In this document: positions 43,438-62,722 of the stretch, in pieces
Layout of the letters: every line of letters starts with the position of its first letter
Numbering within the stretch: the stretch's first letter is position 1
Assembly (NCBI GenBank): GCA_030144965.1
Contig: JAMPUU010000012.1
Coordinates: 310,001 to 374,000, forward strand
DNA: 64,000 nt
Source of the DNA: Nitrospira sp. BO4
GTDB lineage: Bacteria > Nitrospirota > Nitrospiria > Nitrospirales > Nitrospiraceae
Direction of reading: 5' to 3'
Program-made: the position numbers and the translations under genes
Notes under the pieces: model-generated
Database searches by the model: none
What the model saw: the letters and a program-made list of their open reading frames with translations, nothing else
What the model was told of the DNA's origin: nothing

Positions 43438-44124
43438 TTAGGCGGATACCAGCGTGGTCAGATGTTCAGAATGGAGAGTTGGTGTTAACCCGGGGTTATT
43501 CCGATCCCCGGCATCGAGGATATTGACCCTGTGGACCTGTCCACTGGGAATCCAGCGAGCATAGTACTTCAATGTCATTGTCGGTTTGGCGTGTCCTAAC
43601 TGATGGCTTACATACAGCAGTGGAATATTCGAGGAGAGCAGTAAGGACGCAAAGGTGTGCCGAAGGTCATAGACACGGAATCTCGGCAATCCCGCTGCAT
43701 CCAATACGCGATGAAACGTCCGTACTACATGGGATTCATCAAGCAGCGTTCCTGCCTTTGAGGGGAACAACCACAGAGATTCTCTACCCTGTGCTATGTC
43801 CTCAACATGCCGCAGGGTGAGATATGTTTTTAGATCGGATAATAATCCATCACTAAGATCTACCCAGCGTGTCTCGCCAGTCTTCGTACTCTTAATTGCA
43901 CCGCTAAGAGTAGCCGCGCGTTCAACGCGTAACCGCCTTGCCATGAAATCAATATCTCCGACCTGTAAGGCCCGTCCTTCACTGGGGCGAAGTCCTGCCT
44001 TTAGATAGGTGGAGAGCAACATGGAATAAGCAGGGGAAAGAAGTCCACTCGACTCCAGTTCCCGAAGTTTTGATTCAAACGCCTGCTTCTGCTCCCATGT
44101 CAGTGGGGATAAATCGGGTTGCAT
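43438..44124 (-). CDS. tyrosine integrase, C-terminal catalytic part
   Basis: 228 residues. It has the phage-integrase catalytic residues: Arg in GLRPSEGRAL, the YDLRHTFASLL box (Tyr in place of the usual first His), LGHA and the tyrosine in LKYYARWIP. Its N-terminal half is encoded by the overlapping frame at 44100-44717, shifted by one base. ATG 44124 might allow separate translation; otherwise the product exists only if ribosomes shift frame. The gene ends 35 nt from the attL core. Confidence 0.85.
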   Translation of the reverse strand: MQPDLSPLTWEQKQAFESKLRELESSGLLSPAYSMLLSTYLKAGLRPSEGRALQVGDIDFMARRLRVERAATLSGAIKSTKTGETRWVDLSDGLLSDLKTYLTLRHVEDIAQGRESLWLFPSKAGTLLDESHVVRTFHRVLDAAGLPRFRVYDLRHTFASLLLSSNIPLLYVSHQLGHAKPTMTLKYYARWIPSGQVHRVNILDAGDRNNPGLTPTLHSEHLTTLVSA

Positions 44125-44717
44125 GTTCTGACTAGCTCGTCATTTTTCCTGCGTTGCCCCAAAATTGGATTAGTCGTAATCATCCCATCCTCGGCGGCAT
44201 CGGTTAGCATAGTCGATATAACGGCCCTTATCATCCGAACCGTATTGGACGACAATCCATCTTGTTGCTTTTGGTTTAACAGAGTACGAATATCGGCCCA
44301 TGTGAGGGAGGGTAACGTTCGATCTCCCAATGAGGGAAGGACATACAATTCAAGCGTCTGTCGATAGTTGGCTAACGTCTTAACCGCCAAGAACTTCGTG
44401 GCGGTTTCCAGCCACTGGTGGGCGTATTCCTTCAAAGACAAATTGACCACTGGTCGTTCAGTGACGAGCGGTTGCCCTTCAAGAAGCTGGCCTTTGATTA
44501 TGGCTTCCTGCTGACGTGCGATGCCCTTGTTGTCACAGGGAACCCGCCATCGCTTAAGTTTTGCCCCTGGTCCCTTGGCGCTGAGAGTGCGAGTATTAGC
44601 GGTCTCTTGAACATAAAATTCTACATAGTATGACCACACCTTCGGACAGGGACAGCTAAGACCCTCGCGCCCACGTTCACAGCGCCTACTGCATTTGCCT
44701 CGTCTGGTCAGTCCCAT
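44100..44717 (-). CDS. tyrosine integrase, N-terminal part (frameshifted)
   Basis: 205 residues with the SAM-like core-binding domain (LKEYAHQWLETATKFLAVKT; ADIRTLLNQKQQDGLSSNTV; NPILGQ), preceded by a cysteine-rich N-terminus (CSRRCERGREGLSCPCPKVW) likely to bind metal or the arm sites. It ends at a TGA at 44100, 24 codons after the frame should continue into the catalytic part. The junction contains a run of A (GGAAAAATGAC). Either a mutation has split the gene or a -1 shift joins the parts. Confidence 0.82.
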   Translation of the reverse strand: MGLTRRGKCSRRCERGREGLSCPCPKVWSYYVEFYVQETANTRTLSAKGPGAKLKRWRVPCDNKGIARQQEAIIKGQLLEGQPLVTERPVVNLSLKEYAHQWLETATKFLAVKTLANYRQTLELYVLPSLGDRTLPSLTWADIRTLLNQKQQDGLSSNTVRMIRAVISTMLTDAAEDGMITTNPILGQRRKNDELVRTCNPIYPH

Positions 44718-44722
44718 AGAGA

Positions 44723-44935
44723 CTACCTACCTTTCTGTGGCTTCTTGGCCACACCTATAAGTTGATTGGGAGTGATATTTAGTGCCTGACCCAGCTTGAG
44801 GAGTGTTGAAAGCTGCGGATCAAGATTCCCTGCTTCTAGCCTGGCGATTGAGACGTAATGCACTCCTGAAAGGTCTCCAAGCTGTTTGAGGGTCATTCCC
44901 CGCTTCTTTCGCCACTCCCTTAGCCGCGTCGTCAT
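44723..44935 (-). CDS. XRE-family HTH regulator
   Basis: 70 residues, essentially one Cro/C1-type helix-turn-helix (GMTLKQLGDLSGVHYVSIAR then LEAGNLDPQLSTLLKLGQAL). It ends just before the integrase gene and begins 32 nt after the excisionase stop. Expected to repress integration/excision or the ATPase operon. Confidence 0.9.
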   Translation of the reverse strand: MTTRLREWRKKRGMTLKQLGDLSGVHYVSIARLEAGNLDPQLSTLLKLGQALNITPNQLIGVAKKPQKGR

Positions 44936-44967
44936 TGGCCGAGTTTAGCTTTAGAGCTAAACTAGTG

Positions 44968-45177
44968 TCAACCCCATTTTGGCACCGGCATGACCGTCTG
45001 TTGCTTGATCCACTTATCCAGCGTCGCTAGGTCAAACTTGGTCAGGCGACCGACCTTCACATGGGGAATCCGTCGTTGGCTGGTCATTGTGTAGAGGGTA
45101 TGGACTGATAAGCCGGTATATTGTGCGGCTTCACGTATCGTCAGCAGTCTTCGAGTTATAGATGTGTCACAAGTCAT
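44968..45177 (-). CDS. excisionase / MerR-like helix-turn-helix protein
   Basis: 69 residues from ATG 45177. LLTIREAAQYTGLSVHTLYT, RIPHVKVGRLTKFDLATLDK and W are the winged-helix excisionase (HTH_17) pattern. The frame is open to 45291 but the extra residues are not helical or conserved-looking. Its place between the integrase and the replication-like ATPase fits a directionality factor for the island. Confidence 0.85.
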   Translation of the reverse strand: MTCDTSITRRLLTIREAAQYTGLSVHTLYTMTSQRRIPHVKVGRLTKFDLATLDKWIKQQTVMPVPKWG

Positions 45178-45464
45178 TGATTTTCCTTTCTTATTGTGAG
45201 CATCCCCACAATCTATTGAAATTACAGGGATCCCATTTCCCCTTTTGTAATATTCAGAGCCAGGGGGTAAACGCATCATTTCAAGGCTCATTGATGGAGT
45301 TATTAGCCATATTTCTAGGACTGTGCCTCATATTCTTAGATCCCAAGCCATTGTCAGAGGAAAGGGAGGATGTTTTTCGTACTTGTCAACGTGCTTTTCC
45401 CCCCTCTCCTCGATGACAATCGATTCATCCATGCCCTCTCCTCAGAGTTGCTACCTGGACGAAT

Positions 45465-46526
45465 CTAATTCCTGGAAAAGAGATAGGGGTCCCCTCGGTG
45501 TCCGCCCCCTTCTCGGTGTACTTGGTCGCCTAGGGACTGTAAGGCTCTTGATACGTCCTGTTTTGAAAGGTCTGTTTCTTTGGCCAGTTGATCTATGGTT
45601 TTGCCTTCTGGGGTGAGGGCCTCCCAGACCTTATTCGTTTTTGCCAGGGAAGCCATATCCTGAGGTGATCCGAGCTTCCTGTAACAACCCTCCGCATACT
45701 CAATCACCAGGTTGTTGGGGGTGTCGTCATATCGAGACACGGCTTCTAACATCCGCTGATTCCCGCCGCTCTGGGTTCGCTTCATCGAAACGGCAATATC
45801 GACAAGCCCCACGAACGCCGATGAACCTCGAATATCTGACCCATGGCCTCCCCCGCTTTTTCTTGTGTGCGCCAGACCCAGCCAAGCTGCATTGGTTCCT
45901 CGGATGACGTTGAGGAAGGGATACCCCTTTTTCAGGACTTCAGAGGCATCGTTCTCGTCTTTGAGATTCCACCAGGCAGGAATAGTATCGATCACGACCA
46001 AGCCGATGTCCTCTCGCATGATGTAATCCGCTATCTCCATATGGATTTTTGGTGAGAAGGGTAGTTGACCACAGACCACCTTAACGCGCCCCTTTAATGC
46101 TTCCTCAGATCGACGGCGAAGGCGGGCGATCATGTCTCTCCGGTGCTCTTCCAGTCCCAGCAGAAGAACTTTCTCTTCTGTAACCGCTTCCCCCAAAAAC
46201 TCTTCCCCCAAGGCGATTCGTTCAATTAGCTCATACGCGTAGGTGGATTTGCCCACCTTGGGATCTCCTGCCAGGACGGTCAGCCCCCCACGGACCAGAA
46301 AGCCTCTGTAGATCCATGGCACGTCTTCTTCTGACTCCGCGAATAGCTCCGCTATGTCTTGAGGTTGAAAGGGGGAACAGTAATTCGATTCGTCCAAGTA
46401 CCCTTTGTGGGGGGCAGGGGTTGGATAAATCGAATTGTGGCTATCAGGAAGGCCCTCCGGATTAGTCCACCCATTGCCATCGCCTGAACCTTCATGAAAA
46501 TCGCCCCCCGTTAGAACATGCGTCAT
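45465..46526 (-). CDS. RecA-like AAA ATPase (RepA/DnaB-type)
   Basis: 353 residues from ATG 46526, chosen because GGAGGA lies 5-6 nt before it; the frame is open to 46763 and would otherwise overlap the upstream gene by more than 100 nt. Walker A is AGDPKVGKSTYAYE, Walker B is IGLVVIDTIPAWW, then HTRKSGG and GSSAFVGLVDIAV as in plasmid RepA hexameric helicases. The C-terminus has a winged-helix-like segment (LAKETDLSKQDVSRALQSLG). Probably acts in island replication or maintenance. Confidence 0.85.
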   Translation of the reverse strand: MTHVLTGGDFHEGSGDGNGWTNPEGLPDSHNSIYPTPAPHKGYLDESNYCSPFQPQDIAELFAESEEDVPWIYRGFLVRGGLTVLAGDPKVGKSTYAYELIERIALGEEFLGEAVTEEKVLLLGLEEHRRDMIARLRRRSEEALKGRVKVVCGQLPFSPKIHMEIADYIMREDIGLVVIDTIPAWWNLKDENDASEVLKKGYPFLNVIRGTNAAWLGLAHTRKSGGGHGSDIRGSSAFVGLVDIAVSMKRTQSGGNQRMLEAVSRYDDTPNNLVIEYAEGCYRKLGSPQDMASLAKTNKVWEALTPEGKTIDQLAKETDLSKQDVSRALQSLGDQVHREGGGHRGDPYLFSRN

Positions 46527-46650
46527 AAGTCCTCCACCAACACCAACCCACCACACAAAATGTGCAGTCTTGGGTGTTATACCCATGTGGAGGTCTCTCA
46601 AAAAGTCGGGAGATTTTTTCCGAAACAAGAATGGGGGGCTAGAATGCGCC

Positions 46651-47844
46651 CTATTCGTCGGCTTCCGTGTCGGAAAGATCGATGTCGACGGGGTAAAGAT
46701 CATTTGGACCGAAGTCGTCAGGTATCCGGCTACCTTGTGTAACTGAGGGGAGGCTGGACTCATATTTCTTCATCCACTGTGTGATGGTCGGACATGATAA
46801 CGGGCAGTCTTGCCCATGCACGTCACATTGATAGGCTGGCATTTCTAGTGGGACTGCTGTGGTTCGAGTGTGGCGAATCCCTTTGAAGGGGCGAAGATAG
46901 ATACCTTCGAAAATGCGCTTGATCGACTCCCAGACCCCACTTTCACCAGGAATCTTATGCTTAATGCTTGGCGGAACGTCCTGCGCAATCAGTCGCTTGC
47001 CTTTCAGTTGTTGTTGTTCGAGAAACGCAATCTGTCGGAAGGATAGCCTCTCCTTCTCAAAGAGTGTATAGCGTCTCAGGTCCTGCTCTAGGGCCTTCTC
47101 CTGACAATGGAGCAGAAATGCTCGTTCAGGGGGAACGCTATCTGCCATGGCTGGAGCTTCTTCCTTTGTTGGGGCATTGTTCAGGGCATGCTGGAGAACA
47201 CGCTTAATGTCCTGCATGGTATTATCCAACCCCCACTGTTTCATCTGGGTGATGGGAACTACAAAAGTCACCGCTGCCGGTAAACCTGAGGGCAAGGCGA
47301 ATTCATTCGTGCAAGGCACCTCGTCTTCCGTACATTCTTGGGGTTCTTTATCAGGAAAAGAGTCGCGCCACTCCTTTCGTTCTGATTTCAGATAGGGCGT
47401 CCAGTTATAGCGAACCGTGATTGGGAAGACCTTCACCATAAACTCGGTGAGGAGATGAGTTCCGGTATAGGCTTGGTCATTGATTTTGGCCTTTTTCGAT
47501 ACAAATTGACGAAGGTCATGAACCATATCTCGTAGAATCAGGTCTTGAGGTTCATATCCTTGATCAATCCATGAAGCTAGCCGAGTCGGTTCAACTCCAA
47601 ACCACGGTAGCTGAGCCATACTGATGATGGCCTCTACACCGGAATAATCCTCGTTCAGAGATGTAAGCTTCTCGACTCTCTCGATATACCGTGACCAATC
47701 CTGAGGCACAGAATAGACAATATCCTGGTGATCATGCCCTTCGAATCTCACATATTTACGGTTGGGACCTTGAAAAGAGGAACGCTTGAGTGGAGGTTTA
47801 GACTGTCTGCGGGGTCTCAGTCGGGCCTTTTCCCCTTTGCTCAC
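46651..47844 (-). CDS. unknown island protein
   Basis: 397 residues. No recognisable domain. A basic N-terminus (RLRPRRQSKPPLKR) suggests nucleic-acid contact; the middle is helical; a late stretch has cysteines (CDVHGQDCPLSCPTI); the C-terminus is acidic. The start overlaps the DUF72 stop by 4 nt, and the ATPase gene follows about 125 nt after its stop, so it belongs to the ATPase operon. A primase or replication accessory role is possible but unproven. Confidence 0.7.
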   Translation of the reverse strand: MSKGEKARLRPRRQSKPPLKRSSFQGPNRKYVRFEGHDHQDIVYSVPQDWSRYIERVEKLTSLNEDYSGVEAIISMAQLPWFGVEPTRLASWIDQGYEPQDLILRDMVHDLRQFVSKKAKINDQAYTGTHLLTEFMVKVFPITVRYNWTPYLKSERKEWRDSFPDKEPQECTEDEVPCTNEFALPSGLPAAVTFVVPITQMKQWGLDNTMQDIKRVLQHALNNAPTKEEAPAMADSVPPERAFLLHCQEKALEQDLRRYTLFEKERLSFRQIAFLEQQQLKGKRLIAQDVPPSIKHKIPGESGVWESIKRIFEGIYLRPFKGIRHTRTTAVPLEMPAYQCDVHGQDCPLSCPTITQWMKKYESSLPSVTQGSRIPDDFGPNDLYPVDIDLSDTEADE

Positions 47845-48725
47845 AACATCTCCACCAATGCCTGAATAGTGGTAGGGGCATTTCCCTCTGACCGGTTATT
47901 CACCAGGACATAACCAGGTTTGGCGAGCTTGACCGATTGTTGAATGAGTGCAACCGCATCTCTTCGCATGTCGGGCAGTTCACCCACGATCTTGTTGTAT
48001 GGCTCGGCTCGCTTTTTGGCTGCCTCATAGGACATCTTTAAAGGTGTCAGGAGTCGCAGTACGGAAAAGGGAGCTGTGAAAGTTTCTCCCATGCGCTTGT
48101 GTTGTTCAGCCAAGGAGGGCATATAGCACCAATGGTTGTAGACATGCGCCACCCCATGGCGCTCCAACACCTGCCGATAGCCTGGACCCAATAAGCCAGG
48201 GTTTCGAATCTCCACGGCGTACTTGAACGCTTTCGGAAGTTGACCAAAGAACCCATCCAGTTTCGAGATAAATTCATCAGCCGGTACCCCATGCCGCTGA
48301 AACTCAAACAGGAACGGTCCCAGGTGTGACTCAAACTTCGCTTCTCGATAGGGAGTCAGTACGAGTTCATTGAACAACTTGGCGTTCAGGAAACGAGGAT
48401 TCGGCTTGCCAGCCTCCAGACCATAGCGTCGTTGTAGCGCATACACTGGAATCGTGATTTCCTCCCACACCTTAAAACACATCTCAAAGTCTTCGGGGAT
48501 CTGCGTCAGGTACTTGCGGAGTTGGTTCGGGGTTGGTGGACGGTAGAACGTAGAATCATTGCCAACTGTTCGGAATAACGGCTGACCGTTATAGAGATAC
48601 TGGCAATACTCGCCTAAACATTCCCTGGCAAAGGTCGTCTTCGCGTACTGCTTGAGGTAGACCTGGCCTTGCCAGCCTTCATAGGTCCACGTGGAAGTCC
48701 CAAATCTGACAAGTGGTGAAACCAT
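47841..48725 (-). CDS. DUF72 family protein (island-encoded)
   Basis: 294 residues from ATG 48725. FGTSTWTYEGWQGQVY is the DUF72 opening; VEIRNPGLLGPGYRQVLERH and a late YVLVNNRSEGNAPTTIQALVEML complete the TIM-barrel-like fold. It is complete and quite different from the host DUF72 gene the island has cut. DUF72 proteins have no agreed function. It is the first gene of an operon with the unknown protein and the ATPase, so it seems part of the element core rather than cargo. Confidence 0.88.
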   Translation of the reverse strand: MVSPLVRFGTSTWTYEGWQGQVYLKQYAKTTFARECLGEYCQYLYNGQPLFRTVGNDSTFYRPPTPNQLRKYLTQIPEDFEMCFKVWEEITIPVYALQRRYGLEAGKPNPRFLNAKLFNELVLTPYREAKFESHLGPFLFEFQRHGVPADEFISKLDGFFGQLPKAFKYAVEIRNPGLLGPGYRQVLERHGVAHVYNHWCYMPSLAEQHKRMGETFTAPFSVLRLLTPLKMSYEAAKKRAEPYNKIVGELPDMRRDAVALIQQSVKLAKPGYVLVNNRSEGNAPTTIQALVEML

Positions 48726-48764
48726 TGCGCCGTACTGTAATACCAACAATATCTCTGTGCAATG

Positions 48765-49085
48765 TCATACCCTCCTAGCCTTCTGTGGGACCAATCGCAT
48801 GTCCCCGATGAGACCACCGAAGGGATAAATTCTCGCTTCTGCCCACGTTCCAAGCCGAGCGTAATGGTCTGTTATTGCACTCATGCCATACAAGACCGCC
48901 TGCTCACGTGCCTCAGCGTCGTCACGTGCGGGGTAGGAGTATCGGGAACCGTACCGATACTCAATCACAGTGTGTAATGTTGGATGGATGCCGAGGTAGT
49001 TGCTACCTCTGGCAAAGAGGATCACCTGATAGCCGAGAGCGGGTCTCAGATAGAACTGGATATCCTTGTACTCCCACGAATACAT
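48765..49085 (-). CDS. hypothetical protein
   Basis: 106 residues from ATG 49085 (frame open to 49178, where a hydrophobic N-terminus FLTYTILTLHTNIVTIGIMY would be added). FYLRPALGYQVILFARGSNY and YRYGSRYSYPARDDAEAREQ are notable for Tyr and Arg. No family recognised. It lies upstream of the island DUF72 gene in the same direction with a 39-nt gap. Confidence 0.5.
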   Translation of the reverse strand: MYSWEYKDIQFYLRPALGYQVILFARGSNYLGIHPTLHTVIEYRYGSRYSYPARDDAEAREQAVLYGMSAITDHYARLGTWAEARIYPFGGLIGDMRLVPQKARRV

Positions 49086-49210
49086 GATGCCAATGGTTAC
49101 AATGTTTGTATGCAAGGTCAATATGGTATAAGTGAGGAAGTAATAGGCCCACTTAGGAACCTTGCGCTTTAAATACACACAATATTAGAATATGCCCTCG
49201 TCGAGGTGCT

Positions 49211-49954
49211 ATGCCCGCCTCTCGAAATCTTCTAGCCCCGCCTTGTGTAAGGATATTCTTAACCCTATTCATCCTGTTTCTAACGGTAAGCTATTCCTAT
49301 GCTCTATGTATCCCCTCAATAGAAGAAAGCATAGAGGAACCGTACCATTATCTTAGGGCGTTCATCGATTCAATGAGTTACGCCCACGAAGCAAAAAGTC
49401 GATTAGACCGGAAGCGAGAGGGTCAGGAGTCCGACCCATTTGTGGATTTGATGTACGATTTGAAGTTGGCCAAGGCCGATTTTGAATGTGCTGCAGCACT
49501 TGTCTCATCATACAAAACCAGCACGAGCGAGGCCATCAAGCTCAGTGCAGGTGCTGCCGAACAGTCATTTACTCAATTAGCAGACCTGCAAAGCGAAACC
49601 GTAGCCGATCTAAATCACGTGCTCAACGCTGGGGAAAGGGAGATTCCGAAGGGGACTCTTATTGAGCGTAGAGCACAACGGGCGGTGTCAGCTGATAACG
49701 CGTGGAAGCTTATTCCTCAGGCTGCCATTGCAGCAACCTATTCGGTTGTTGAGGAAGATAAAGAAACAAAGTTGATGTCCCGGTTAGCTTTAACAAAGAC
49801 GCAGCAGGATGAAATCTTGAGGAGACTACGTGCGTTATCTGGGGATGACGTGACCAATGGTATTCGGGCAGGGCAGCATTCTTTGGTGGCAGCAGCATCA
49901 GTCCTCTACGAAGTGGTAGGTAAACAGGGTCGCAAGACCAGGGATGCTAAATGA
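49211..49954 (+). CDS. exported hypothetical protein
   Basis: 247 residues with a signal peptide (FLTLFILFLTVSYSYALC). The mature part is almost all helix, with charged heptad-like stretches (AKSRLDRKREGQESDP; TLIERRAQRAVSADNAWKLI). No catalytic motif. Found between two island operons, on the plus strand, followed by a nuclease gene. Confidence 0.6.
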   Translation: MPASRNLLAPPCVRIFLTLFILFLTVSYSYALCIPSIEESIEEPYHYLRAFIDSMSYAHEAKSRLDRKREGQESDPFVDLMYDLKLAKADFECAAALVSSYKTSTSEAIKLSAGAAEQSFTQLADLQSETVADLNHVLNAGEREIPKGTLIERRAQRAVSADNAWKLIPQAAIAATYSVVEEDKETKLMSRLALTKTQQDEILRRLRALSGDDVTNGIRAGQHSLVAAASVLYEVVGKQGRKTRDAK

Positions 49955-50031
49955 TTGAGGTAATGTACCGCTTTTCCAACTTATTCTGGTTCTTGTTGGA
50001 TGGTCGAAACTCTTACTTCCACCGCTAGAGT

Positions 50032-50538
50032 ATGGCTGTTTCTCTTTATGCCTCTCCAATTCTGTGGCTCGTTCTCAATATAGGTTCCTCTTATGCAAGT
50101 GATTTCGTGGGGAAGGTAGTTTCCATCAAAGACGGTGACACCATCGAAGTTCTCCACAACAAGAAAGCGGAACGTATACGCCTCACCGGTATCGATTGCC
50201 CTGAAAAGAAGCAAGCCTTTGGTCAACAAGCGAAGCAAGCCACGTCCAGCTTAAGCTTTGGTCAATACGTCACGATTCAAAGAATCGGCACAGATCGTTA
50301 TGGACGCACACTTGCGACGGTGATTCTACGAGATGGAAAGAATCTGAACCATGAGTGGGTGAGCCAAGGTCGGTGCTGGTGGTATCGGAAATATGCGCCT
50401 GGGGATATGGCCCTTGAGGGGTTGGAGAATGAGGCACGACGGGCCAGGAGAGGATTATGGGTTGATTCTCGACCAGTACAGCCGTGGGAGTGTAGAAAGT
50501 TTAGACATCCTCAACTTTCATCGGTGGTAAACGGATGA
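50032..50538 (+). CDS. thermonuclease (SNase) family protein
   Basis: 168 residues with a signal peptide (LYASPILWLVLNIGSSYAS). The SNase core is VVSIKDGDTIEVLH, then the catalytic Arg/Glu region RLTGIDCPEKKQAFGQQAK and DRYGRTLATVIL, closing with RCWWYRKYAPGDMALEGLE. It should be a secreted or periplasmic calcium-dependent nuclease. Such nucleases are common mobile-element cargo. The stop overlaps the start of the next gene. Confidence 0.92.
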   Translation: MAVSLYASPILWLVLNIGSSYASDFVGKVVSIKDGDTIEVLHNKKAERIRLTGIDCPEKKQAFGQQAKQATSSLSFGQYVTIQRIGTDRYGRTLATVILRDGKNLNHEWVSQGRCWWYRKYAPGDMALEGLENEARRARRGLWVDSRPVQPWECRKFRHPQLSSVVNG

Positions 50539-51284
50539 AAGCCATAGCCGAAACGATTCTAAATCATCTGGATACGTGCCCCATACCGAGTTCGAACAGT
50601 AAGTGGCGTTATGCCTATGAGCTAGTTTTGGGGGCAGCAGTGTCGCTTATCAGTGCTGAAAAATATTTTGTGGGGACAAGTCATTACCATCAAAAGGAGC
50701 CTTACGATTATCTATTGAGCGCTCTACCGAAGCTCGTACGAAAGGCGCACCAAGAGGCAGCCGATAAACCCATCGATCTCTACCATGAAGGGTTAGAAAT
50801 CTGGACCGCCGGTTATTTTTTCAATTCAGGCGTTATCAGAATTGCATGCGCATATGAGTATGCAATACATACGGCTTGTGGTGATGATCCGTACGATAAC
50901 CTGGACTTTAAAGAAGCTTCGATATATTTAAGGTCTATTAAACAGGAGTTTCCCCCTGAAATAGTAAATCATTTAGCTGCGTTTGAGTCAGTTACTGGAC
51001 GAGACAAGTTGCACCAACAGGTCGATCAATTAGTGGGGCGCCTTGTAGCAGAAGGGTGTCCAGATGATGAAAAGTTTTACGAATGGCTACAGAAGAATGA
51101 TGATGAGTTTTTTAGGACTGCTTTTTATTATGTATGGTGTGATTACAACTGGTTTAAGCATCGACCCATGGGCTATCCGGCGGGCAATCATCCACGAAAA
51201 GCCCATCACGTTCAGTTTGCGCTGGCAGCACGTGCCTATTGTGCTCTATGCGATTTCTATTCTTGGTGCTACAGACTCCCCTGA
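50535..51284 (+). CDS. hypothetical protein
   Basis: 249 residues, soluble, alpha-helical, with many Tyr/Trp/Cys near the end (YYVWCDYNWFKHRPMGYPAG; CDFYSWCYRL). Overlaps the nuclease stop by 4 nt, so the two are coupled; an immunity or partner role is conceivable but nothing in the sequence shows it. No family recognised. Confidence 0.65.
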   Translation: MKAIAETILNHLDTCPIPSSNSKWRYAYELVLGAAVSLISAEKYFVGTSHYHQKEPYDYLLSALPKLVRKAHQEAADKPIDLYHEGLEIWTAGYFFNSGVIRIACAYEYAIHTACGDDPYDNLDFKEASIYLRSIKQEFPPEIVNHLAAFESVTGRDKLHQQVDQLVGRLVAEGCPDDEKFYEWLQKNDDEFFRTAFYYVWCDYNWFKHRPMGYPAGNHPRKAHHVQFALAARAYCALCDFYSWCYRLP

Positions 51285-51370
51285 CTCCATTTCTCGTCTG
51301 TATGGGGGTCTCAGTAGGACCTAGTGGCTGAATACAAAGCACTCATCGTTTGATCCGTGCGGCTTTCCTT

Positions 51371-51416
51371 AAAAGAGTCCCCTGACTATGTCGTGTCGGA
51401 GGGTGTGCCGATCATT
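51371..51416 (+). repeat. module-boundary repeat, copy 1 (most diverged)
   Basis: 46 bp resembling the 3' half of the repeats at 55804 and 59464, e.g. GTGTGCCGATCAT here against GTGCGCCGATCAT there, and AAAAGAGTCCCCTGACTATG against AAAGGAGTCTCAGGACCATG (15 of 20). It lies in the 317-nt gap between the helical hypothetical gene and the first TIR gene. No gene is visible in the rest of that gap. Confidence 0.55.
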
Positions 51417-51601
51417 CTAGGATGTGCATGCGGAGGATGAGGTGGGCTTGGGCACAAAATGAGCACAATTATGATGTCGTTCAATTAATTTGGCAGAATT
51501 GAGCCAGAGAGCTTGAGAGATTGTGGAGTATCCAATGTTGCAGTCTAGCCGCACGCAGCAAGGAACGAAGGTTATCAGTGCCTTTTAGCTCTAACCGTAG
51601 G

Positions 51602-51830
51602 TTAGATATTCGCATTACGCACCGGACGAATCAGCCTCTCACTCGACTCGGCCATTGCTTGAAGCGCATAGTCGGGAATGAATGATGGGTTGAAGAATGT
51701 GCTTCTTCGGCTGGTTTTCTCTTGCAGAGTTTCCCTATTCCATGGTCCCTTATCCATGGTGCCCGTCCTGGGTGTAAAGATTTTGGAGTACAAGGTCACG
51801 GGTGGTGGGATGTAGCCTTCCATCGCAGTT
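51602..51830 (-). pseudogene. frameshifted C-terminal tail of the TIR/DUF1566 gene
   Basis: The minus-strand frame beginning QTAMEGYIPPPVTLYSKI continues the DUF1566 domain exactly where the upstream frame leaves it (RAEVSEL), and ends with RLIRPVRNANI, typical of a DUF1566 C-terminus. One missing C near 51830 (GAGCTC-AAACTG instead of GAGCTCCAAACTG) accounts for the shift. Confidence 0.7.
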
Positions 51831-52473
51831 TGAGCTCGGAAACCTCTGCGCGAGTTGGTAGTCGCCATCCTGTATGCCCATGTGGCTTGGCGGCAAGGAC
51901 CGCAGCTACCTTTTCCATTGGATATTCGCGTTCATCGTGAGGGAGTCCCCAGACAAGTCCTGTTGTTGTATCAGTGACGCTTCCATCACTATTCTTCGAA
52001 AATCGCACCACCGCAACTGGAGGCGCTGGTGTGGATTTCCCAAGTAATCGTGATGAGAGATGTAAATAACTCGACTGGAAGTACGAATCTTCGCTGAAAT
52101 CAATGTAAAACGTTCCAAGAAGCCAGGATGGCGCCGCTTCTTCCCACAACCCTTTACGCAAGAGAGGGATGAACTTGCGACGATTACCGGAAACAAAGAC
52201 TTCTCCGGTCATGATGTCGCCCTCGTACCCGACGCCGCCCTTTCTCGCATTCGACTTGTTTCGGTAGGACGGCGTACAAATCAAGAGCACGAAATCGGAG
52301 TCGCGAACAGAGGACTCCATGAACTGAGGGAGCTGATCGCCAGGGATGGCGTGCCAGCGATCGAGAATCGTCTCAATACCATCGGTTCGGAGTTGCGCTG
52401 CCAACGAGCGAACCCACTCTCTATGTGCTTCGTCTTCCCATGTATAGGACAAGAATGCCTTGGGGTTGCTCAT
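51796..52473 (-). CDS. TIR/SEFIR-domain protein with partial DUF1566 domain
   Basis: 225 residues from ATG 52473. The N-terminal 150 form a TIR/SEFIR domain: KAFLSYTWEDEAHREWVRSL, LDRWHAIPGDQLPQFMESSV and FVLLICTPSYRNKSNARKGG. A DUF1566 (Lcl C-terminal) domain begins at DGSVTDTTTGLVWGLPH and GWRLPTRAEVSEL, then the frame shifts and stops at 51796; its proper end is in the next frame down to 51602. The TIR half is complete and could act alone. DUF1566 domains bind surfaces or other proteins. First of three adjacent TIR genes. Confidence 0.8.
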   Translation of the reverse strand: MSNPKAFLSYTWEDEAHREWVRSLAAQLRTDGIETILDRWHAIPGDQLPQFMESSVRDSDFVLLICTPSYRNKSNARKGGVGYEGDIMTGEVFVSGNRRKFIPLLRKGLWEEAAPSWLLGTFYIDFSEDSYFQSSYLHLSSRLLGKSTPAPPVAVVRFSKNSDGSVTDTTTGLVWGLPHDEREYPMEKVAAVLAAKPHGHTGWRLPTRAEVSELKLRWKATSHHP

Positions 52474-52652
52474 ACGACCATCCACATGGTTGATCTGAGA
52501 TGCTTAGCCACGTTGGCTACTGACTGGCACAATTCGCACAAGCTAGATTGGACACCGGGTAATGATTCTTGCGTTTATCCAATTACTTGTCAATCAGTAC
52601 CAGCGCAATGCTTGTTGTTGACAGGACAGCATCGCTAATCGTCCAGCGCCCA

Positions 52653-53573
52653 CTAGTCCAAGAAATCCTCCCTCCGAAGGACAGACCTAACTTCATCGAA
52701 CGACGAAGCAATCTTACCCTTCGAAAACGTGATGTGGCCAAGTCCATGGATGTTCGAGAATGTTTCGCAGCCTTCCTCCAACAACAGGATCGCCCTATGA
52801 AATCCGAGGCGTCCCTGCACGAGCCCTGCCTCGTGGACGACGTTGCTTCGAGCTCTTATCCTGCCATCCTTCTGTTCATCCTCAGCCGTCATCACTAGGA
52901 AGGCGATTCCAGCTTCGTCGAGCATTTGTGTAAGGCGTTGTACAGTCGTTACTCCCGCTACCGGGATACGGCTAAATTCATCATGGGATAGGTGCAGTGT
53001 GTCTTCAATATAGTTCCGAAGATCCTTCCACGCGGGAGAGTGACCGTGTCCAATGAACACCCGTCTCTCGCGGTGGATCCGTGAGTGCTTTTCCACGTCC
53101 TCGGACCATCGGATGAACGCCCGCATAAAATCGCTCTGGCTTACCCACTCCCGATTTGAAGCCCGCGGCATTCTCACCACCTCATGAGTTGTGCCCTCAG
53201 AGACGATGCCGCGATCCTGTACTCCCTCCTCTCGCACTACCAGGAGCGGGAGATCATGTGCGATTGCCAGACCGCCCTCAAGATGGTTGCCCTCAGAGAT
53301 CTTCAAACCATTCTCATGACTCCTCGGTCCCAAACCTTTGCATTCCCATTGAGCAAACGCGAGCACGAGTGTACCGTCTGCCTTTCCCATCGCCTCGTTT
53401 GCCTTTTCAAACCCCCAGCCCTTGCGCAAAGGGCCTTTCTCGAAGGATCTCCATGGTTCAAATCCTCGGGCAACTTCAAGTTCATGGAGAATTGAGTGCT
53501 TAACCTCCAACTGATTCTCATCGAGATGGTGGTCATCAGAAGCGCTGATAAACACTCGTGGCCTATTGCGCAT
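52653..53573 (-). CDS. twin Rossmann-like TIR protein (TIR_2, CAP12/PycTIR-like C-terminus)
   Basis: 306 residues from ATG 53573, with GGAGG 7 nt before it. The C-terminal domain RRVFIGHGHSPAWKDLRNYI, MLDEAGIAFLVMTAEDEQKD and ARSNVVHEAGLVQGRLGFHR matches the PF10137-type TIR domain of CBASS/Pycsar effectors, with the glutamate of VHEAG in the NAD-site position. The N-terminal domain (RVFISASDDHHLDE; NHLEGGLAIAHDLPLLVVRE) has the TIR/nucleoside-deoxyribosyltransferase-like pattern too, so the protein may carry two NAD-cleaving-type folds. No cyclase or Pycsar partner is adjacent. Confidence 0.8.
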   Translation of the reverse strand: MRNRPRVFISASDDHHLDENQLEVKHSILHELEVARGFEPWRSFEKGPLRKGWGFEKANEAMGKADGTLVLAFAQWECKGLGPRSHENGLKISEGNHLEGGLAIAHDLPLLVVREEGVQDRGIVSEGTTHEVVRMPRASNREWVSQSDFMRAFIRWSEDVEKHSRIHRERRVFIGHGHSPAWKDLRNYIEDTLHLSHDEFSRIPVAGVTTVQRLTQMLDEAGIAFLVMTAEDEQKDGRIRARSNVVHEAGLVQGRLGFHRAILLLEEGCETFSNIHGLGHITFSKGKIASSFDEVRSVLRREDFLD

Positions 53574-53813
53574 GTCCATTCCTCCCTTCGAAAAGATTTC
53601 CTTTCGGAGAGAGGGATGATGGCCCAAAAACCATATTATTTCAATGATTCGAAGTACAGTTAAATATGCGGGATTTGAGGGGCTAGAGTACGAGGTTCAA
53701 AACAACTGATTGTGATTACCATGCTAATACTTGGTTAACTAAGTGTGTTTCTTGACTCCGGTCGTCCATTAACCGAATCGAGTTTCGCGGTAGGCCTGCC
53801 TTGACCTTTTAGC

Positions 53814-55553
53814 CTAATCCCTTGGTCGTCGGGCTTCTCTTATCAGAGAAACAAATCTACGGCGGGAAGTATCCGTCAATTCACCACCAGGAGCATGTTC
53901 CGGCGTTATGTCATAGAACAGATTGTCGGTCGAGGCAGTGTACTCCTTGTATACGAACTTTTGATCTACGATCACAGGAATAATATATTCGCTTCTCACA
54001 GTCACTGTTTGGGCCAAGGCCAAGTCCCAGTGTTTTACCAGCTCAAGGAAACCTCTAGTCGATCCCACTTTCGAAATCAGCGGAATGAAGTAACGACTGT
54101 GCAGGATAGTGTTAGTGACATCACTGGTGTCCACAGGTTCGAAGCTAGAAACAGGAAGAAGCACAATCTCTTTGTCTGCAACCCCTAACTTGGAAAGCTC
54201 TTGAACAAATGCTTGGGCGGACTGCTCATCGTCTTCACGACTAAAGCTAATACAAAACATACGGCCACTAAATTCCTCAGACGAAAGCGTAAGCGCGGCA
54301 TCCCAACGTCTTCGGAGCTCTGTTACAAAGGTTTCGGCGGGGCCATCCCAAATCATTTTCTCAATCACTCCGTGCCGATCGCTTACGAATGCTCCCGCTT
54401 TGTCTGGAATCGGAATTGATGCCAAATTATTAGAAAGCCCCTCTGCAGATAGCGTGCGAATAAGAGTGCGTAGGAGTAGTTCAGGAAAGTCGCAACCAAT
54501 GAAAAGCAACGTGTGCATATTAAATGTCTTGAAAAATTCTGGTAAGAGCAGGTGTCCTTGTCTTATAAGCATTCGTAAATATTCTGCGATCTCGTAGTCG
54601 TCAATGGCGAATATTGGATATGGTCTTGCTTTTCCAAACAGGTATAACACCTGAACACAGTCTTCATCTCTCCAATCAATACTGAGATCTCTGGTCTCTG
54701 ATGTTGGCAGGCGAGGAGAAAAAGCGGAAATACAAACGGGGCGTGATTCAGCTATGCTACGTTCACAAAAGTCATCAGGGGTTGTTGTGATGAAGAGCTT
54801 AAAGTCAGTAATCCCTGAGAGCTGTCGTAGAGGTTCAGGAGTCTTTGTCTCAATTTCCCGAACTAGAGTTTTTAACTGCTTGTAGACCTCGTCGTACAAT
54901 TCGTCGGTTAGTGAAACTTTAAATTGTGACTGCTGTTTTAGGACTGTGATCGCATCATGTAGCTCACGGAAAGGCTGTAACTGCCAGAGATTAGGATCGA
55001 TGCCATGGCTCTTTAAGAGTGCCGCTGCAGCCCCGTGCATTAGCGAGCTACGTCCGTCCAATGATACAAGTAGCCGGCGTCCCACTACAGGAATAACATA
55101 GCCTTCCTTAATCCGTGCTAATAATCGCTTCCATGCACGATCATCAAGCGTACGTTCAATACGAGGTACCAGCTTTGATATCGCCTCTAAGAGAGCAGCG
55201 AATGCGGCGTTTGGAGTCGATGGAGTCCAGCCCTCAAGCTTAGCTGCTTGTAGTCCTTTAAATCCGAACGGGATACGAGCATCATTATCAAGCATTGCTG
55301 GCACGAGAACGCCTCTCCCTTGGCCCTCTTCAGCTTCATCTAACACCCACTGCTTATCTACGGACTTCTTCGACCAGAGAACAAGAACACATCGAGATTG
55401 AGATAATTCGCGCAATATCTCGGTGCGAAATGTGGTGCCTGGAGCGATCTTCATGTCCCACCAGACGCTCCAACCTCGTGCTATTAATGCTTCAGCAATA
55501 GGGGCTACTCGATCCTTATCTTCGGACGCATAGCTCACAAAGATATCTGCCAT
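53814..55553 (-). CDS. TIR - SIR2-like - TIR protein
   Basis: 579 residues from ATG 55553 (or two codons earlier); no good ribosome site. Residues 1-130: TIR domain (IFVSYASEDKDRVAPIAEAL; GWSVWWDMKIAPGTTF; WVLDEAEEGQGRGVLVP), with the catalytic-type Glu in WVLDEAEEG. Residues 150-400: SIR2-like region (VIPVVGRRLLV; LFITTTPDDFCERSI; LYLFGKARPYPI; LLFIGCDFPELLLRTL). Residues 440-560: a second, divergent TIR-type domain (MFCISFSREDDEQSAQAFVQ; YFIPLISKVGSTRGFLELV). TIR and SIR2 domains of bacterial defence proteins both degrade NAD. It is the first gene of the TIR group and is not coupled to the next. Confidence 0.85.
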   Translation of the reverse strand: MADIFVSYASEDKDRVAPIAEALIARGWSVWWDMKIAPGTTFRTEILRELSQSRCVLVLWSKKSVDKQWVLDEAEEGQGRGVLVPAMLDNDARIPFGFKGLQAAKLEGWTPSTPNAAFAALLEAISKLVPRIERTLDDRAWKRLLARIKEGYVIPVVGRRLLVSLDGRSSLMHGAAAALLKSHGIDPNLWQLQPFRELHDAITVLKQQSQFKVSLTDELYDEVYKQLKTLVREIETKTPEPLRQLSGITDFKLFITTTPDDFCERSIAESRPVCISAFSPRLPTSETRDLSIDWRDEDCVQVLYLFGKARPYPIFAIDDYEIAEYLRMLIRQGHLLLPEFFKTFNMHTLLFIGCDFPELLLRTLIRTLSAEGLSNNLASIPIPDKAGAFVSDRHGVIEKMIWDGPAETFVTELRRRWDAALTLSSEEFSGRMFCISFSREDDEQSAQAFVQELSKLGVADKEIVLLPVSSFEPVDTSDVTNTILHSRYFIPLISKVGSTRGFLELVKHWDLALAQTVTVRSEYIIPVIVDQKFVYKEYTASTDNLFYDITPEHAPGGELTDTSRRRFVSLIREARRPRD

Positions 55554-55803
55554 CACCACACCATTAGAGGAGGTTTTATTACAGCTGTAGGCTCTTTACC
55601 CATTAGGTTGGAGTTCATGTGCAACGCAAGTGACTTATGGGTTAATGTCCCTATCTCGAAAATGAGTAATCTCAAAAGCATTTCTTTTTGGATCTGCGAA
55701 AGGATGGTCGATACCCACAAATAAATCAAGCCGAAGTGTGACAGCAACTTACAGGAACGGGGTTTTAACAGACTCTGTTCTGCTGCAATTCCCCATGCCC
55801 CCC

Positions 55804-55872
55804 TTTTGTCCTGGTGTTGCAAAGCCAAAAGGAGTCTCAGGACCATGACGGGTGGGGAGTGCGCCGATCATG
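55804..55872 (+). repeat. module-boundary repeat, copy 2
   Basis: 69 bp aligning without gaps with 59464-59532; the ends TTTTGTCCTGGTG and GTGCGCCGATCATG are identical and the middle is diverged. It lies in the 650-nt region without a gene between the TIR genes and the amylase module (55554-56215). The region also has a hairpin at 55992-56026 and nothing else I can name. Confidence 0.65.
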
Positions 55873-55991
55873 GGGGGAGTAAGGTGTGTGTTATTTGCGT
55901 GTTTTTAGGAGAGGCAAATCAGTATGAAACAGGATGACATGGACTTAATTGAAACAAAGCGCCTAACATGTTTTTGTGCAGTAAAGAGAAG

Positions 55992-56026
55992 GGATTGCCC
56001 AAATCGTCAATGACTTAAGCAATCCC
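55992..56026 (+). repeat. hairpin repeat, copy 1
   Basis: GGATTGC at 55992 pairs with GCAATCC at the end of a 35-bp segment; the whole segment recurs at 59648-59682 at the same distance (185-190 bp) from the module-boundary repeat. No T-run follows this copy, so termination is doubtful here. Confidence 0.55.
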
Positions 56027-56215
56027 TCTCGATACAATCCCGCCTTCGGCACCATCTCCCAATCTTTACTCTCAACTTGCATTTCTAGCGTTTCAATCCG
56101 TCCTTTTTTTTTCACCACGCCTCAAAGATGATGAGTAAGATCGGGACTGAGATACGGGTCTAGAACCATGATAGAGCCATAGGAATGACCTCGCGGTTGT
56201 GCATTCGAATGAACT

Positions 56216-56590
56216 TCATGTCTGCGGGTGATGGAGCCAGATATTGGCGACTAAAAGATAGTCGGTCCCGCTCGGTACTATTTGCAAAATATTAGGAAAC
56301 GGTAAGCCCAAATAGCCTACGGAAAACGAAGACCCCGGAATTACAATAGAGACAGGTTCATAATCTACTACAAAATGGTTTGTCCACGGACGGGGCTCGA
56401 TCCATCCGATCTGCATTCCGTTCAGGCGAACTTGGGCCCGTTGTGGGTACGTGTAACTAGTCTTGACTTCCATGATTAGCAATGATGGACGTCCCCTATC
56501 CACCCTGATTAGAAAGAAGGGTTTGTTGAAGGGAAAGCTATTGTTTACGAATGCAGACCCATTATGGATGATTGAAATATCGCTGGCCAT
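56216..56590 (-). CDS. hypothetical beta-rich protein
   Basis: 124 residues; AAGGAGAAG precedes the ATG at 56590. Almost entirely short strands (AQVRLNGMQIGWIEPRPWTN; LQIVPSGTDYLLVANIWLHH) as in small jelly-roll or lectin-like domains. No signal peptide. It may be a structural or sugar-binding partner of the amylase module, but no family is recognised. Confidence 0.6.
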   Translation of the reverse strand: MASDISIIHNGSAFVNNSFPFNKPFFLIRVDRGRPSLLIMEVKTSYTYPQRAQVRLNGMQIGWIEPRPWTNHFVVDYEPVSIVIPGSSFSVGYLGLPFPNILQIVPSGTDYLLVANIWLHHPQT

Positions 56591-56640
56591 CTTGCTTCTC
56601 CTTACTTAGAAGAAAAAATAAGGCATACGGAAAACCGTGG

Positions 56641-56919
56641 TTATTTTCTCACTTGCAGCACTTTCATTAGATGCTCTTGTATCTTGGCCGACTCATCGAA
56701 CTCTGCTCGTCGGTTGGCATTGGCAAGAGCCGCCTCCAGCTCTAAAGTTTCGTCAAATGCATCATTGACAGCGATACCTAACGCGGTGGCGATCGCGGCC
56801 ACCATGACGCCTAAGTCCTCCTGGGGCAATTCTCTGACTTTCTCCTGCCAATTGACATTCCGCTGCTTTCCGAGGGCGACTAGTTGGTCATATCTTGCGC
56901 GAAGAGTAGATTGGTCCAT
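56641..56919 (-). CDS. hypothetical small helical protein
   Basis: 92 residues, ATG 56919 with AAGGAG just upstream. LEAALANANRRAEFDESAKI suggests coiled-coil; no cysteine, no signal. It is 50 nt upstream of the beta-rich gene in the same direction, and the two probably share a transcript. Function unknown. Confidence 0.55.
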   Translation of the reverse strand: MDQSTLRARYDQLVALGKQRNVNWQEKVRELPQEDLGVMVAAIATALGIAVNDAFDETLELEAALANANRRAEFDESAKIQEHLMKVLQVRK

Positions 56920-57272
56920 AACAGCTCCTTTGTGAGTACATTAAGTCTCAGCTATTCACCTCATAGCAAATCGCACGCCTTGAATGTGAACTTAGTATTG
57001 TTGCTGGGTTCTATATGGTGTGCGGACGAAGTACTGAATCAGAAAAGATTCGAAGTGTATCCTTTGGATTCATATGAGTCGGTGTGCCGGTTCTGCTAAA
57101 TAGCTGACGAGAGCTAGCTTCCCGTTGCCTCGACACCTGCGCAGGGTAGCAGGTCTTATCATTATCCTTCGTCCGACTCCTCAGTATGACCTCACTCTGG
57201 CACCAGCATTGCTTCCGTAGTGAATCGAAGGTAGGTCTAAAGTTCTCAACAATGTATCAAGGAAGGTCTCCT

Positions 57273-57494
57273 ATGAAATGCACAAGGTGCTCCGGGCTGA
57301 TGATCGTGGATCATCTACTGGACATGCAGGAGAGTTATCTGTCGATGTGGATGCGGGCACACCGGTGTGTCACGTGCGGCAATATCGTTGATCCTGTTAT
57401 CCAGCACAATCGAATGGTTCGGCGCGCCCAGAGTGCCGAGCGGCTTGCATCACGGTTAGCCCGCACGGCAGCTCAACCGGCACAGGCAGCATAA
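57273..57494 (+). CDS. small zinc-ribbon protein
   Basis: 73 residues from ATG 57273 (AAGGTCTCC upstream). KCTRCSGLMIVDHL and CVTCGNIVD give two CxxC knuckles, then a basic Ala/Arg-rich tail (MVRRAQSAERLASRLARTAA). Suggests nucleic-acid binding; frequent in Nitrospira-like genomes by recollection only. The 298 nt after it hold no gene. Confidence 0.6.
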   Translation: MKCTRCSGLMIVDHLLDMQESYLSMWMRAHRCVTCGNIVDPVIQHNRMVRRAQSAERLASRLARTAAQPAQAA

Positions 57495-57792
57495 GGAATA
57501 TTTAGATTCCTTGGTCGTAGTGGACTGCTTTCGGAAAGCACATTGTTGGAGTTGTCTATCCGCTTGCGCGGTAGATGGGGGCTGTTAACTTATTATGAAT
57601 ATGTCGAGTGGACGGCTTTCACCGATGTAGTTTCACGCGGTGGATAGCTTGGCCAGGTGAACAAAGCAATAGTTTACACTATTGTCACCTCAATCAGTGT
57701 GGGTATGAGACGCTTTTGTCGCATGCTCGGCAGTGTCGACGCCAAAGTGCGGAATCATCAAAGCACTACCGTTCATTGGTAGGAGACTGATC

Positions 57793-59331
57793 ATGAAATT
57801 GAAACCTCAGACCCGAACGCCATGTCAATGGCAGGTTCTCTCCTGTGTGGTTCTCATCATCGCCACCGTTTCATGGTTACCGGCGTATGGCCAAAGCGGG
57901 TTTGACGATGACCGCGTCATGCTTCAAGGCTTCTATTGGGAATCCTATCGTCATGGACACCCTGAAAAGCCTCAGTTCAGCTCGTTCGGCAATGCCCATT
58001 GGTACAGCCTCGTGCAACAACAGGCCTCGACCATCAACATGGGGCGGTTCGATCTCATCTGGCTGCCCCCACCCTCGTACGCTGGGCAGTACAGCGCAGG
58101 CTACAATCCGAAGGAATATTTCAGGCTGGACAATAGCTATGGCACTTTTGATGAACACCGGGCGATGTTGGAAGCGCTGCTTCAGTATGGCGTCGAACCC
58201 ATTGCCGATATCGTTATTAACCATCGGGATGGCTCACAGAAATGGGCTGATTTTCAGAATCCGACCTGGGACACGAAGGCGATTACAAAATACGACGAAG
58301 CGTTTTATAACACCGAATCCGAAGTGTACAACACACCGGAAAGCAAGAGAGGAGCGGACGAAGAATCCACTAACGAGTATGCTCCCATGAGAAGGACCGC
58401 ATATGGCTATGGCGACTTTCGAGATCTGGACCATACGAATGTGACGGTGCAACAGGACATCGTGAAATACCTGTTACAGCTTCGCTCGATGGGCTACCGC
58501 GGCTGGCGTTATGACATGGTGCATGGGTATCACGCGCGAAGGCTCGCGTATTACAACACAATGACGAACCCGACCTTTTCCGTCGGCGAATATGACTGGG
58601 GCGCGCACAATGAGCAACGGGGCTGGATGTGGTATACGGCCACAGATACCGCTTCAGCGAAGGGGAATGATCATATAAAGAGTTCCAGTTCAGTCTTCGA
58701 TTTCACGACGTTCTTCACCCTGAAAGCCAACAAAGGCATGGGCCAGTATTTTGTTTGGTATGGGTTCGGCAATGGCATCGGGATGGTCGGTGATACGACC
58801 GACAACCTCAGTTGGAAAAATCGCTCCGTGACGTTCCTGGAGAACCATGATACGGGCTATCGCACCAATGAGGACGGAACGCCTCAGGCGGGACACGAAT
58901 ATGACAGCTTCCAGAACGGATGGGAAGTTGAACAGGCGTACGCACAGATTCTGACGCATCCTGGGATTCCTACGGTGTACTGGAAGCATTATTTCGATTG
59001 GGGGCAGGGCCTCACAAACAAGATACAGGCCTTGATTAATGCTCGAAAAGTCGCTGGGGTCCATGCGGGTAGCACACTGCTCCTTCAGGACAATGCGAGG
59101 GGAAAAGGGGTCTATGCGGCACGCATCCAGGGACGAAACGGCGATTTATACATGCGCGTTGGTGGAAGTGATGCCGACTGGCAACCGAGTGATTCGAATT
59201 ATCGTGATTATCGTGAGTACGCACAAGGAACTGGCTGGAAGGTGTGGGTCAGCCTCCCCGGCAATCCCACCGTTCAGCAAGCCCCACGAAAGACAGCCTT
59301 GCCTGTGCCGACATATGTTCCTCCCGATTAG
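57793..59331 (+). CDS. secreted alpha-amylase (GH13)
   Basis: 512 residues from ATG 57793, with TAGGAG upstream. Signal peptide VLSCVVLIIATVSWLPAYGQ. The mature enzyme starts VMLQGFYWESYRHG, the opening of the GH13 subfamilies 6/7 (plant and archaeal-type alpha-amylases). Conserved regions are DIVINHRDG, GWRYDMVHGY (nucleophile Asp), FSVGEYDWG (acid Glu) and FLENHDTGY (stabiliser Asp). A C-terminal beta domain (GVHAGSTLLLQ) ends in a proline tail. It would cut starch or glycogen outside the cytoplasm. It is clear metabolic cargo of the island. Confidence 0.93.
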   Translation: MKLKPQTRTPCQWQVLSCVVLIIATVSWLPAYGQSGFDDDRVMLQGFYWESYRHGHPEKPQFSSFGNAHWYSLVQQQASTINMGRFDLIWLPPPSYAGQYSAGYNPKEYFRLDNSYGTFDEHRAMLEALLQYGVEPIADIVINHRDGSQKWADFQNPTWDTKAITKYDEAFYNTESEVYNTPESKRGADEESTNEYAPMRRTAYGYGDFRDLDHTNVTVQQDIVKYLLQLRSMGYRGWRYDMVHGYHARRLAYYNTMTNPTFSVGEYDWGAHNEQRGWMWYTATDTASAKGNDHIKSSSSVFDFTTFFTLKANKGMGQYFVWYGFGNGIGMVGDTTDNLSWKNRSVTFLENHDTGYRTNEDGTPQAGHEYDSFQNGWEVEQAYAQILTHPGIPTVYWKHYFDWGQGLTNKIQALINARKVAGVHAGSTLLLQDNARGKGVYAARIQGRNGDLYMRVGGSDADWQPSDSNYRDYREYAQGTGWKVWVSLPGNPTVQQAPRKTALPVPTYVPPD

Positions 59332-59463
59332 GTCGCAAGCGCAACCTTGTACCGGCTCATTCATTATCTTAGCGAATCCAAAAGATCTACAGAATCCTTA
59401 CTAGCTAAAAGGCTATCAGGACAGGTACAGCGAACCATGGCATCCCGCACTAATCAGTCCTCA

Positions 59464-59532
59464 TTTTGTCCTGGTGATGCAAACCGAATATGGTACCTAA
59501 ACCCATGACGGGTGGGGGGTGCGCCGATCATG
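59464..59532 (+). repeat. module-boundary repeat, copy 3
   Basis: 69 bp, best match to 55804-55872, about 160 bp inside attR. In both copies a short frame opens at MTGGxCADH but differs afterwards. The 59332-59645 gap holds this repeat and the following hairpin and no gene. Confidence 0.65.
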
Positions 59533-59644
59533 TCTGGGTGGCAGGTGTTCACCCGGTGTTACTGCGAGCGACAAGCGAGGCTAAAGTGAAATGAAATGGT
59601 ACGAACTCAAAGTACAAGGAAATGCACTCTGTGATTGAAGGAAG

Positions 59645-59687
59645 AGGGGATTGCCCAAATCTTCGAGGACTTGAGCAACCCCTTTTT
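59645..59687 (+). terminator. hairpin repeat, copy 2, terminator-like
   Basis: GGGGATTGC pairs with GCAACCCC (one bulged A) and is followed by TTTTT at 59682-59686, the form of an intrinsic terminator on the plus strand, some 310 nt after the amylase stop and immediately before attR. The stem is shared with 55992-56026. Confidence 0.6.
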
Positions 59688-59689
59688 AT

Positions 59690-60057
59690 CTACCACACAT
59701 CGGTGGGCTATAGAATTTCGCCATGAGAGTTGGCACACGGACGAGATCGAACAACTCCTTCTCCGACATGCTATCGCGTGGGCAGCAGTTGAGACGGATG
59801 AACGAGAGGCGGAGCATCGAGACACGGCAGACTTTCGGTATGTGCGGCTTCGAAAAAGCGCCTATAGCGAAAGCCAGCTCAATCGATGGGCGGCACATCT
59901 TCAGGAGGCGTCACAGAAGGGAAAAGACTGCTTTATTTACTGCAAGCACGAAGACGAAGGTTCGCCCTGGCTCTGGGCAGATACACTGATACGACTTCTG
60001 AATCTGTCGAGGGCTTCAACCGACACAGTGGAGGAGAAAAACAACGGACAGCTCTAG
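59690..60057 (+). pseudogene. DUF72 protein, 3' part (displaced by the island)
   Basis: 122 codons continuing the host DUF72 gene: AIEFRHESWHTDEIEQLLLR, DTADFRYVRLRKSAYSESQL and KDCFIYCKHEDEGSPWLWAD, then a normal end. In this copy the frame is preceded by island sequence (EGIAQIFEDLSNP) with only TTG codons and no ribosome site, so it is probably not expressed. Joined at TTHRWAIE with the part at 42973, the gene would be about 265 residues. Confidence 0.9.
59692..59716 (+). repeat. attR-like direct repeat
   Basis: Matches 43378-43402 at 24 of 25 bases (17 identical, T/C, 7 identical). It restores the reading frame into the second half of the DUF72 gene (TTHRWAIEFRHESW). Confidence 0.88.
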
Positions 60058-62713: not shown

Positions 62714-62722
62714 GCTACAAGC

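Follow-up and report, generated by a model that had tools for sequence, protein, structure and literature searches.

The gene at positions 53814..55553 of the analysed DNA (a stretch of 64,000 nucleotides, referred to here as the window) encodes a protein where a TIR domain, a SIR2-like domain and a second TIR domain follow one another in a single chain. On balance, we favour the reading that this protein is a defence effector with NADase activity, an orphan put together by domain shuffling. A TIR of foreign lineage was fused at the N-terminus of a SIR2-like-TIR protein, the original C-terminal TIR no longer has its catalytic Glu and BB-loop, and there is no nSTAND1 partner. The fusion, the loss in the C-terminal TIR and the missing partner can be read directly from the sequences compared here, and the order of these events is one that we infer.

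Anatomy of the three-domain protein

The gene and its domains are as follows.

53814..55553, minus strand: gene of the 579-aa TIR/pseudo-SIR2/pseudo-TIR protein, stop codon included
55170..55553, minus strand: N-terminal TIR domain (aa 1-128), matching TIR_2, with W69/E73 and the BB-loop intact
54294..55142, minus strand: SIR2-like domain (aa 138-420), with Asn replaced by Thr258 and His by Phe306, predicted inactive
53829..54266, minus strand: C-terminal TIR domain (aa 430-575), with Glu replaced by His508 and the BB-loop degraded, predicted inactive

The reading frame of 579 codons runs uninterrupted from the ATG at 55553 (a GTG at 55559 is an alternative start) to the stop at 53814. The domain order had been proposed correctly in a sequence-only reading of the window, with boundaries that differ from ours by about 20 residues or less. 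Three segments were searched separately against Pfam and gave matches consistent with this order. The first (aa 1-138) matched TIR_2 (PF13676) at 2.4e-23, while the matches of aa 139-423 to SIR2_2 (PF13289; 0.0017, 18.9 bits against a cut-off of 24.5) and of aa 424-579 to TIR_2 (5.3e-4, 20.9 bits against a cut-off of 28) were weak. Both weak matches were accepted because relatives of the protein match the two profiles: SIR2_2 was found in 17 of the 18 aligned family members (best 1.6e-7) and TIR_2 likewise in 17 of 18 (best 6.4e-19). In addition, a profile-profile comparison of the family with canonical SIR2_2 domains gave a probability of 96.6%. The AlphaFold2 models were moderate (mean pLDDT of 72.5 for this protein, whose alignment depth was zero over the N-terminal TIR, and 77.3 for a second model). 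Foldseek placed the SIR2 structures of ThsA, Avs5, KomC and DSR2 on the core, which upholds the proposed SIR2-like middle, and TIR structures were matched as well. Since the whole-chain TM-scores are low and the models moderate, they back the folds only. Taken together, we are highly confident in the anatomy of the protein as described.

The N-terminal TIR retains Trp69 and Glu73 (WxxxE) and the BB-loop WWDxxIxPG, and thus has the sequence features of a catalytic TIR NADase; it would be the sole NADase of the protein. A tree built from 35 TIR domains groups this one with TIRs of the same genus and the C-terminal TIR with the SIR2-like-TIR family, the split being supported at 100/100. The chain is therefore a fusion of two lineages, and internal duplication of a single TIR is ruled out. 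The closest relatives of the N-terminal TIR are TIR-FGE-sulfatase-type proteins of the same genus (48% identity, one clade), and many of the same-genus TIRs in this lineage head FGE-sulfatase-type proteins, as read from their sequences.

Defence sirtuins carry the motifs GAGxS, TTNxD and HG, the last of which may be NG in Avs5 (PMC12931631). Our alignments show GxRLL, TxTPD and FG in place of these motifs throughout the family to which the core belongs, with few exceptions, none of which restores a canonical motif. For comparison, the Asn and His motifs are kept in 13 canonical SIR2_2 proteins of related genomes. Neither the protein nor its family thus has the motif set of an active SIR2 NADase (GAGxS, TTNxD, HG/NG), and the SIR2-like domain is a pseudo-sirtuin across the whole family, predicted to be inactive.

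In the C-terminal TIR, the Glu conserved among relatives aligns with Glu77 of SPARTA, where the E77A mutant serves as a catalytic control (PMC10474274), and is replaced by His508. The BB-loop WFDxxxIEPG of the relatives is also replaced, which leaves this domain without the two features (Glu and BB-loop) expected of a catalytic TIR NADase. A joint alignment of all TIRs was misregistered at the W/E motif and was left out of this residue assignment. At 5.83, the end branch leading to the protein is very long in the C-terminal TIR, compared with 2.21 in the SIR2-like part. With Glu lost at the C-terminus, the SIR2 motifs lost and W69/E73 kept at the N-terminus, the single predicted NADase site has changed ends, from the C-terminus of the chain to its N-terminus.

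These residues decide most of what the sequence-only reading had said of the domains. Its first TIR indeed retains a Glu (Glu73) and its last TIR is diverged in Glu, BB-loop and branch length alike; its suggestion that the latter is a sensor is possible. The description of three NAD-binding folds in one chain stands as a statement about folds only, because the SIR2-like domain is without catalytic and NAD motifs family-wide and the last TIR is without Glu and BB-loop, so that one catalytic site is left. The architecture was also called unusual: no second copy was found in the genomes searched, where one genome carries it, yet the SIR2-like-TIR part recurs as a unit, the N-terminal TIR being the sole novelty. 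No open-access literature on TIR-SIR2-TIR, SIR2-TIR or TIR-SIR2 architectures was found. The protein has no NCBIfam or PADLOC match that exceeds a curated cut-off or spans the entire chain; there were partial TIR matches only, and the NCBIfam matches lay far under their cut-offs.

The SIR2-like-TIR family and its nSTAND1 partner

Residues 130-579 belong to an uncharacterised SIR2-like-TIR family found in a sister genus, Proteobacteria and Myxococcota, with members in Nitrospira, Rubrivivax, Thauera, Aromatoleum, Nitrosomonas, Paraburkholderia and Myxococcales. This region is co-linear with the relatives from end to end at 30-36% identity, shares their pseudo-SIR2 signature and matches them at full length with E-values of 1e-60 to 1e-66. 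Relatives were found in five sister-genus genomes of the same taxonomic family, on one Paraburkholderia caribensis replicon and at 18 loci of a contig collection, which overlap the sister-genus genomes so that at least 2 of them are repeats. The 18 loci came from an alignment-based pattern scan, a scan with this protein alone giving nothing. Pattern-based scans miss distant members, and the full-profile searches covered genome collections of one phylum. No family relatives were found in phages, viral contigs or E. coli.

The relatives are about 455-470 aa long and start at the SIR2-like domain; an N-terminal TIR was observed in none of the 20-odd proteins. The catalytic Glu of their C-terminal TIR is conserved, and of the family's domains this TIR alone is likely to cleave NAD+. 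An nSTAND1 NTPase gene lies directly downstream on the same strand in all 22 relatives with readable downstream sequence. nSTAND1 has been named as a conflict-system NTPase (PMC8195603). In these neighbourhoods nSTAND1 occurs with WD40 repeats, TPR-S and patatin genes are often nearby, and a CHAT gene is present in Paraburkholderia. The partner context that had been suggested for TIR-SIR2 pairs, namely Thoeris-type or short-Argonaute, is therefore not the one seen here, where the partner of the relatives is the NTPase. No nSTAND1 relative was found downstream of our gene, elsewhere in the window or in its own genome, and the same search recovered nSTAND1 in two sister-genus genomes as a positive control.

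A distant relative from another family of the phylum (L094 and L095, genome G202) is a pseudo-SIR2-TIR protein with GPEAS, TTPD and YG motifs and an apparently kept TIR Glu. Its locus has a CHAT-like protein, the SIR2-like-TIR protein and an nSTAND1-like NTPase in a row, the CHAT-like protein and NTPase being read from sequence. The presence of such an NTPase next to this relative suggests that the two-gene unit predates the family treated here. The unit (pseudo-SIR2-TIR with nSTAND1 NTPase, often accompanied by TPR-S, patatin or CHAT genes) spans several phyla and has no name in the libraries searched.

The integrative element and its cargo

The gene is carried by an integrative element, whose relevant features are listed below.

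43378..59716, strand not assigned: integrative element of about 16.3 kb, with 25-bp direct repeats at 43378-43402 and 59692-59716
43438..44717, minus strand: tyrosine integrase, as two overlapping ORFs (44100-44717 and 43438-44124)
51796..52485, minus strand: bSEFIR-type TIR gene (PADLOC bSEFIR, 7.7e-60) with a truncated tail, cargo of the same element
52653..53627, minus strand: CAP12/Pycsar-type TIR gene with a C-terminal TIR, cargo of the same element

The two copies of the 25-bp att repeat differ by one mismatch. The insertion target is a DUF72 gene, which is split by the insertion, and a genome of the same species has the empty site with flanks that are 99.9% identical. Another DUF72 gene, brought along by the element itself (47841-48749), may compensate for the broken one. 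As the integrase is split into two overlapping ORFs, the element may no longer move. Its other cargo includes an HTH_17 protein and an AAA_25 protein. A dispersed repeat some 220 bp long (59464-59690), of which the genome has about 20 complete or partial copies, ends exactly at the right border of the element, and two fragments of it (55804-55872 and 55987-56027) are located just upstream of the gene. Further on in the window, three tandem paralogues of about 290 aa each with a signal-peptide-like start occupy 60131-63589.

Three TIR-type genes, including the gene studied here, follow one another on the same strand. The N-terminal half of the CAP12-type neighbour is without any Pfam match, and the bSEFIR-type gene, taken over 51602-52485, appears truncated or frameshifted in that its DUF1566/Lcl_C tail is incomplete. 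No nucleotide cyclase was found among the scanned neighbouring genes. A partnership with the two neighbouring TIR genes is not supported: the gaps between the genes are 170-190 bp, and homologues of the CAP12-type gene do not track the family. Carriage as mobile-element cargo fits a defence role of the protein and does not prove it.

Proposed mode of action and comparison with known systems

In the favoured reading, the protein would act against phages or mobile elements as cargo of the integrative element. The pseudo-SIR2 and pseudo-TIR part would sense a trigger and/or drive assembly, like the SIR2 cores of the filament-forming ThsA and Avs5. Assembly would gather the N-terminal TIRs and order their BB-loops, and the gathered TIRs would then cleave NAD+ and halt the growth of the infected cell. 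We infer an NADase role for the N-terminal TIR, a sensor or assembly role for the core and an abortive mode of defence; the assembly model is borrowed from fold relatives and is put forward by analogy. A more far-reaching statement is offered tentatively, as it is rather unlikely to hold in full: a pseudo-sirtuin/TIR effector may have left its STAND partner by gaining a foreign TIR as its enzyme, its own TIR becoming a non-catalytic sensor or assembly module, which would give a self-contained, one-gene defence system. The protein illustrates how bacterial immune NADases may be rebuilt from parts, a sirtuin core that is predicted to be dead being retained as a module and the catalytic TIR changing from one end of the chain to the other.

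The new architecture is represented by a single copy and may not be kept by selection; the protein could be a decaying orphan: a shuffled gene that has lost its nSTAND1 partner, in which the two inactive domains are functionless relics and the N-terminal TIR is at most a stray NADase. The lone copy without a partner, the very long C-terminal TIR branch and the truncated neighbour on the same element agree with this scenario, which we nevertheless consider unlikely given that no stop interrupts the 579 codons and that GC3 is even over all three domains. Furthermore, near-invariant columns were retained in both parts (41 of 61 in the SIR2-like part and 23 of 40 in the C-terminal TIR), which suggests that both parts do something.

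It is more doubtful still that the chain combines a signal maker with a receiver in a Thoeris-like manner, where the N-terminal TIR or the neighbouring TIR proteins would make a signal of the cyclic ADP-ribose type, with the core as receptor for NAD+ or for the signal. In fold the core resembles ThsA most closely, both inactive domains are nucleotide-binding folds and the row of TIR genes on one strand would suit such a system. However, ThsA senses through a SLOG domain that is absent here, the NAD-contacting GAGxS is lost too, and the spacing of the neighbours and the distribution of their homologues speak against a shared system.

The wording of the sequence-only reading would also allow the pseudo-SIR2 to be an enzyme with altered chemistry, all three domains acting on NAD+ or related nucleotides. 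The TTNxD Asp is invariant in the family (D260 in this protein) and Avs5 stays active with Asn in place of the HG His (PMC12931631). This possibility is nonetheless very unlikely. In Avs5 the TTNxD Asn is essential, N110A being dead (PMC12931631), and the family has another residue at this position; the His has given way to Phe, or to Tyr in the distant relative, and the C-terminal TIR of this protein has His in place of Glu. That the fusion results from faulty assembly or annotation, as its occurrence in one genome only might suggest, is scarcely credible: the parts are joined in frame, the composition stays even over the junction, and the gene lies on a contig of 720 kb within an element that is bounded by att repeats and whose empty site is seen in a sister genome.

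Among known systems, Thoeris (ThsA SIR2-SLOG, ThsB TIR) likewise brings SIR2 and TIR folds together, and differs in that our protein has no SLOG, has lost the SIR2 motifs and holds its TIRs in the same chain. Membership in Thoeris was rejected because a SLOG match is absent and the ThsB-type matches are weak and restricted to the TIR. Membership in the short-Argonaute systems (SPARTA/SPARSA) was also rejected, as neither the gene nor the tested neighbours gave an APAZ or Argonaute Pfam match. SPARTA (TIR-APAZ/short Argonaute) differs in having these two modules; its TIR fixes the catalytic Glu in our alignment, and the idea that TIRs become active by assembling is taken over from it. Avs5 (SIR2-nSTAND3) and DSR1/DSR2 are similar in that a SIR2-like core is tied to STAND or sensor modules. 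Their SIR2 is an active NADase, unlike the predicted inactive domain described here, and the NTPase of the relatives is nSTAND1 in a separate gene, which our protein lacks. The SIR2-like-TIR/nSTAND1 family itself differs from the protein in having no N-terminal TIR, a kept C-terminal Glu and an nSTAND1 gene downstream. The TIR-FGE-sulfatase-type proteins share the N-terminal TIR clade, their C-terminal part being FGE-sulfatase-like where that of the three-domain protein is SIR2-like-TIR.
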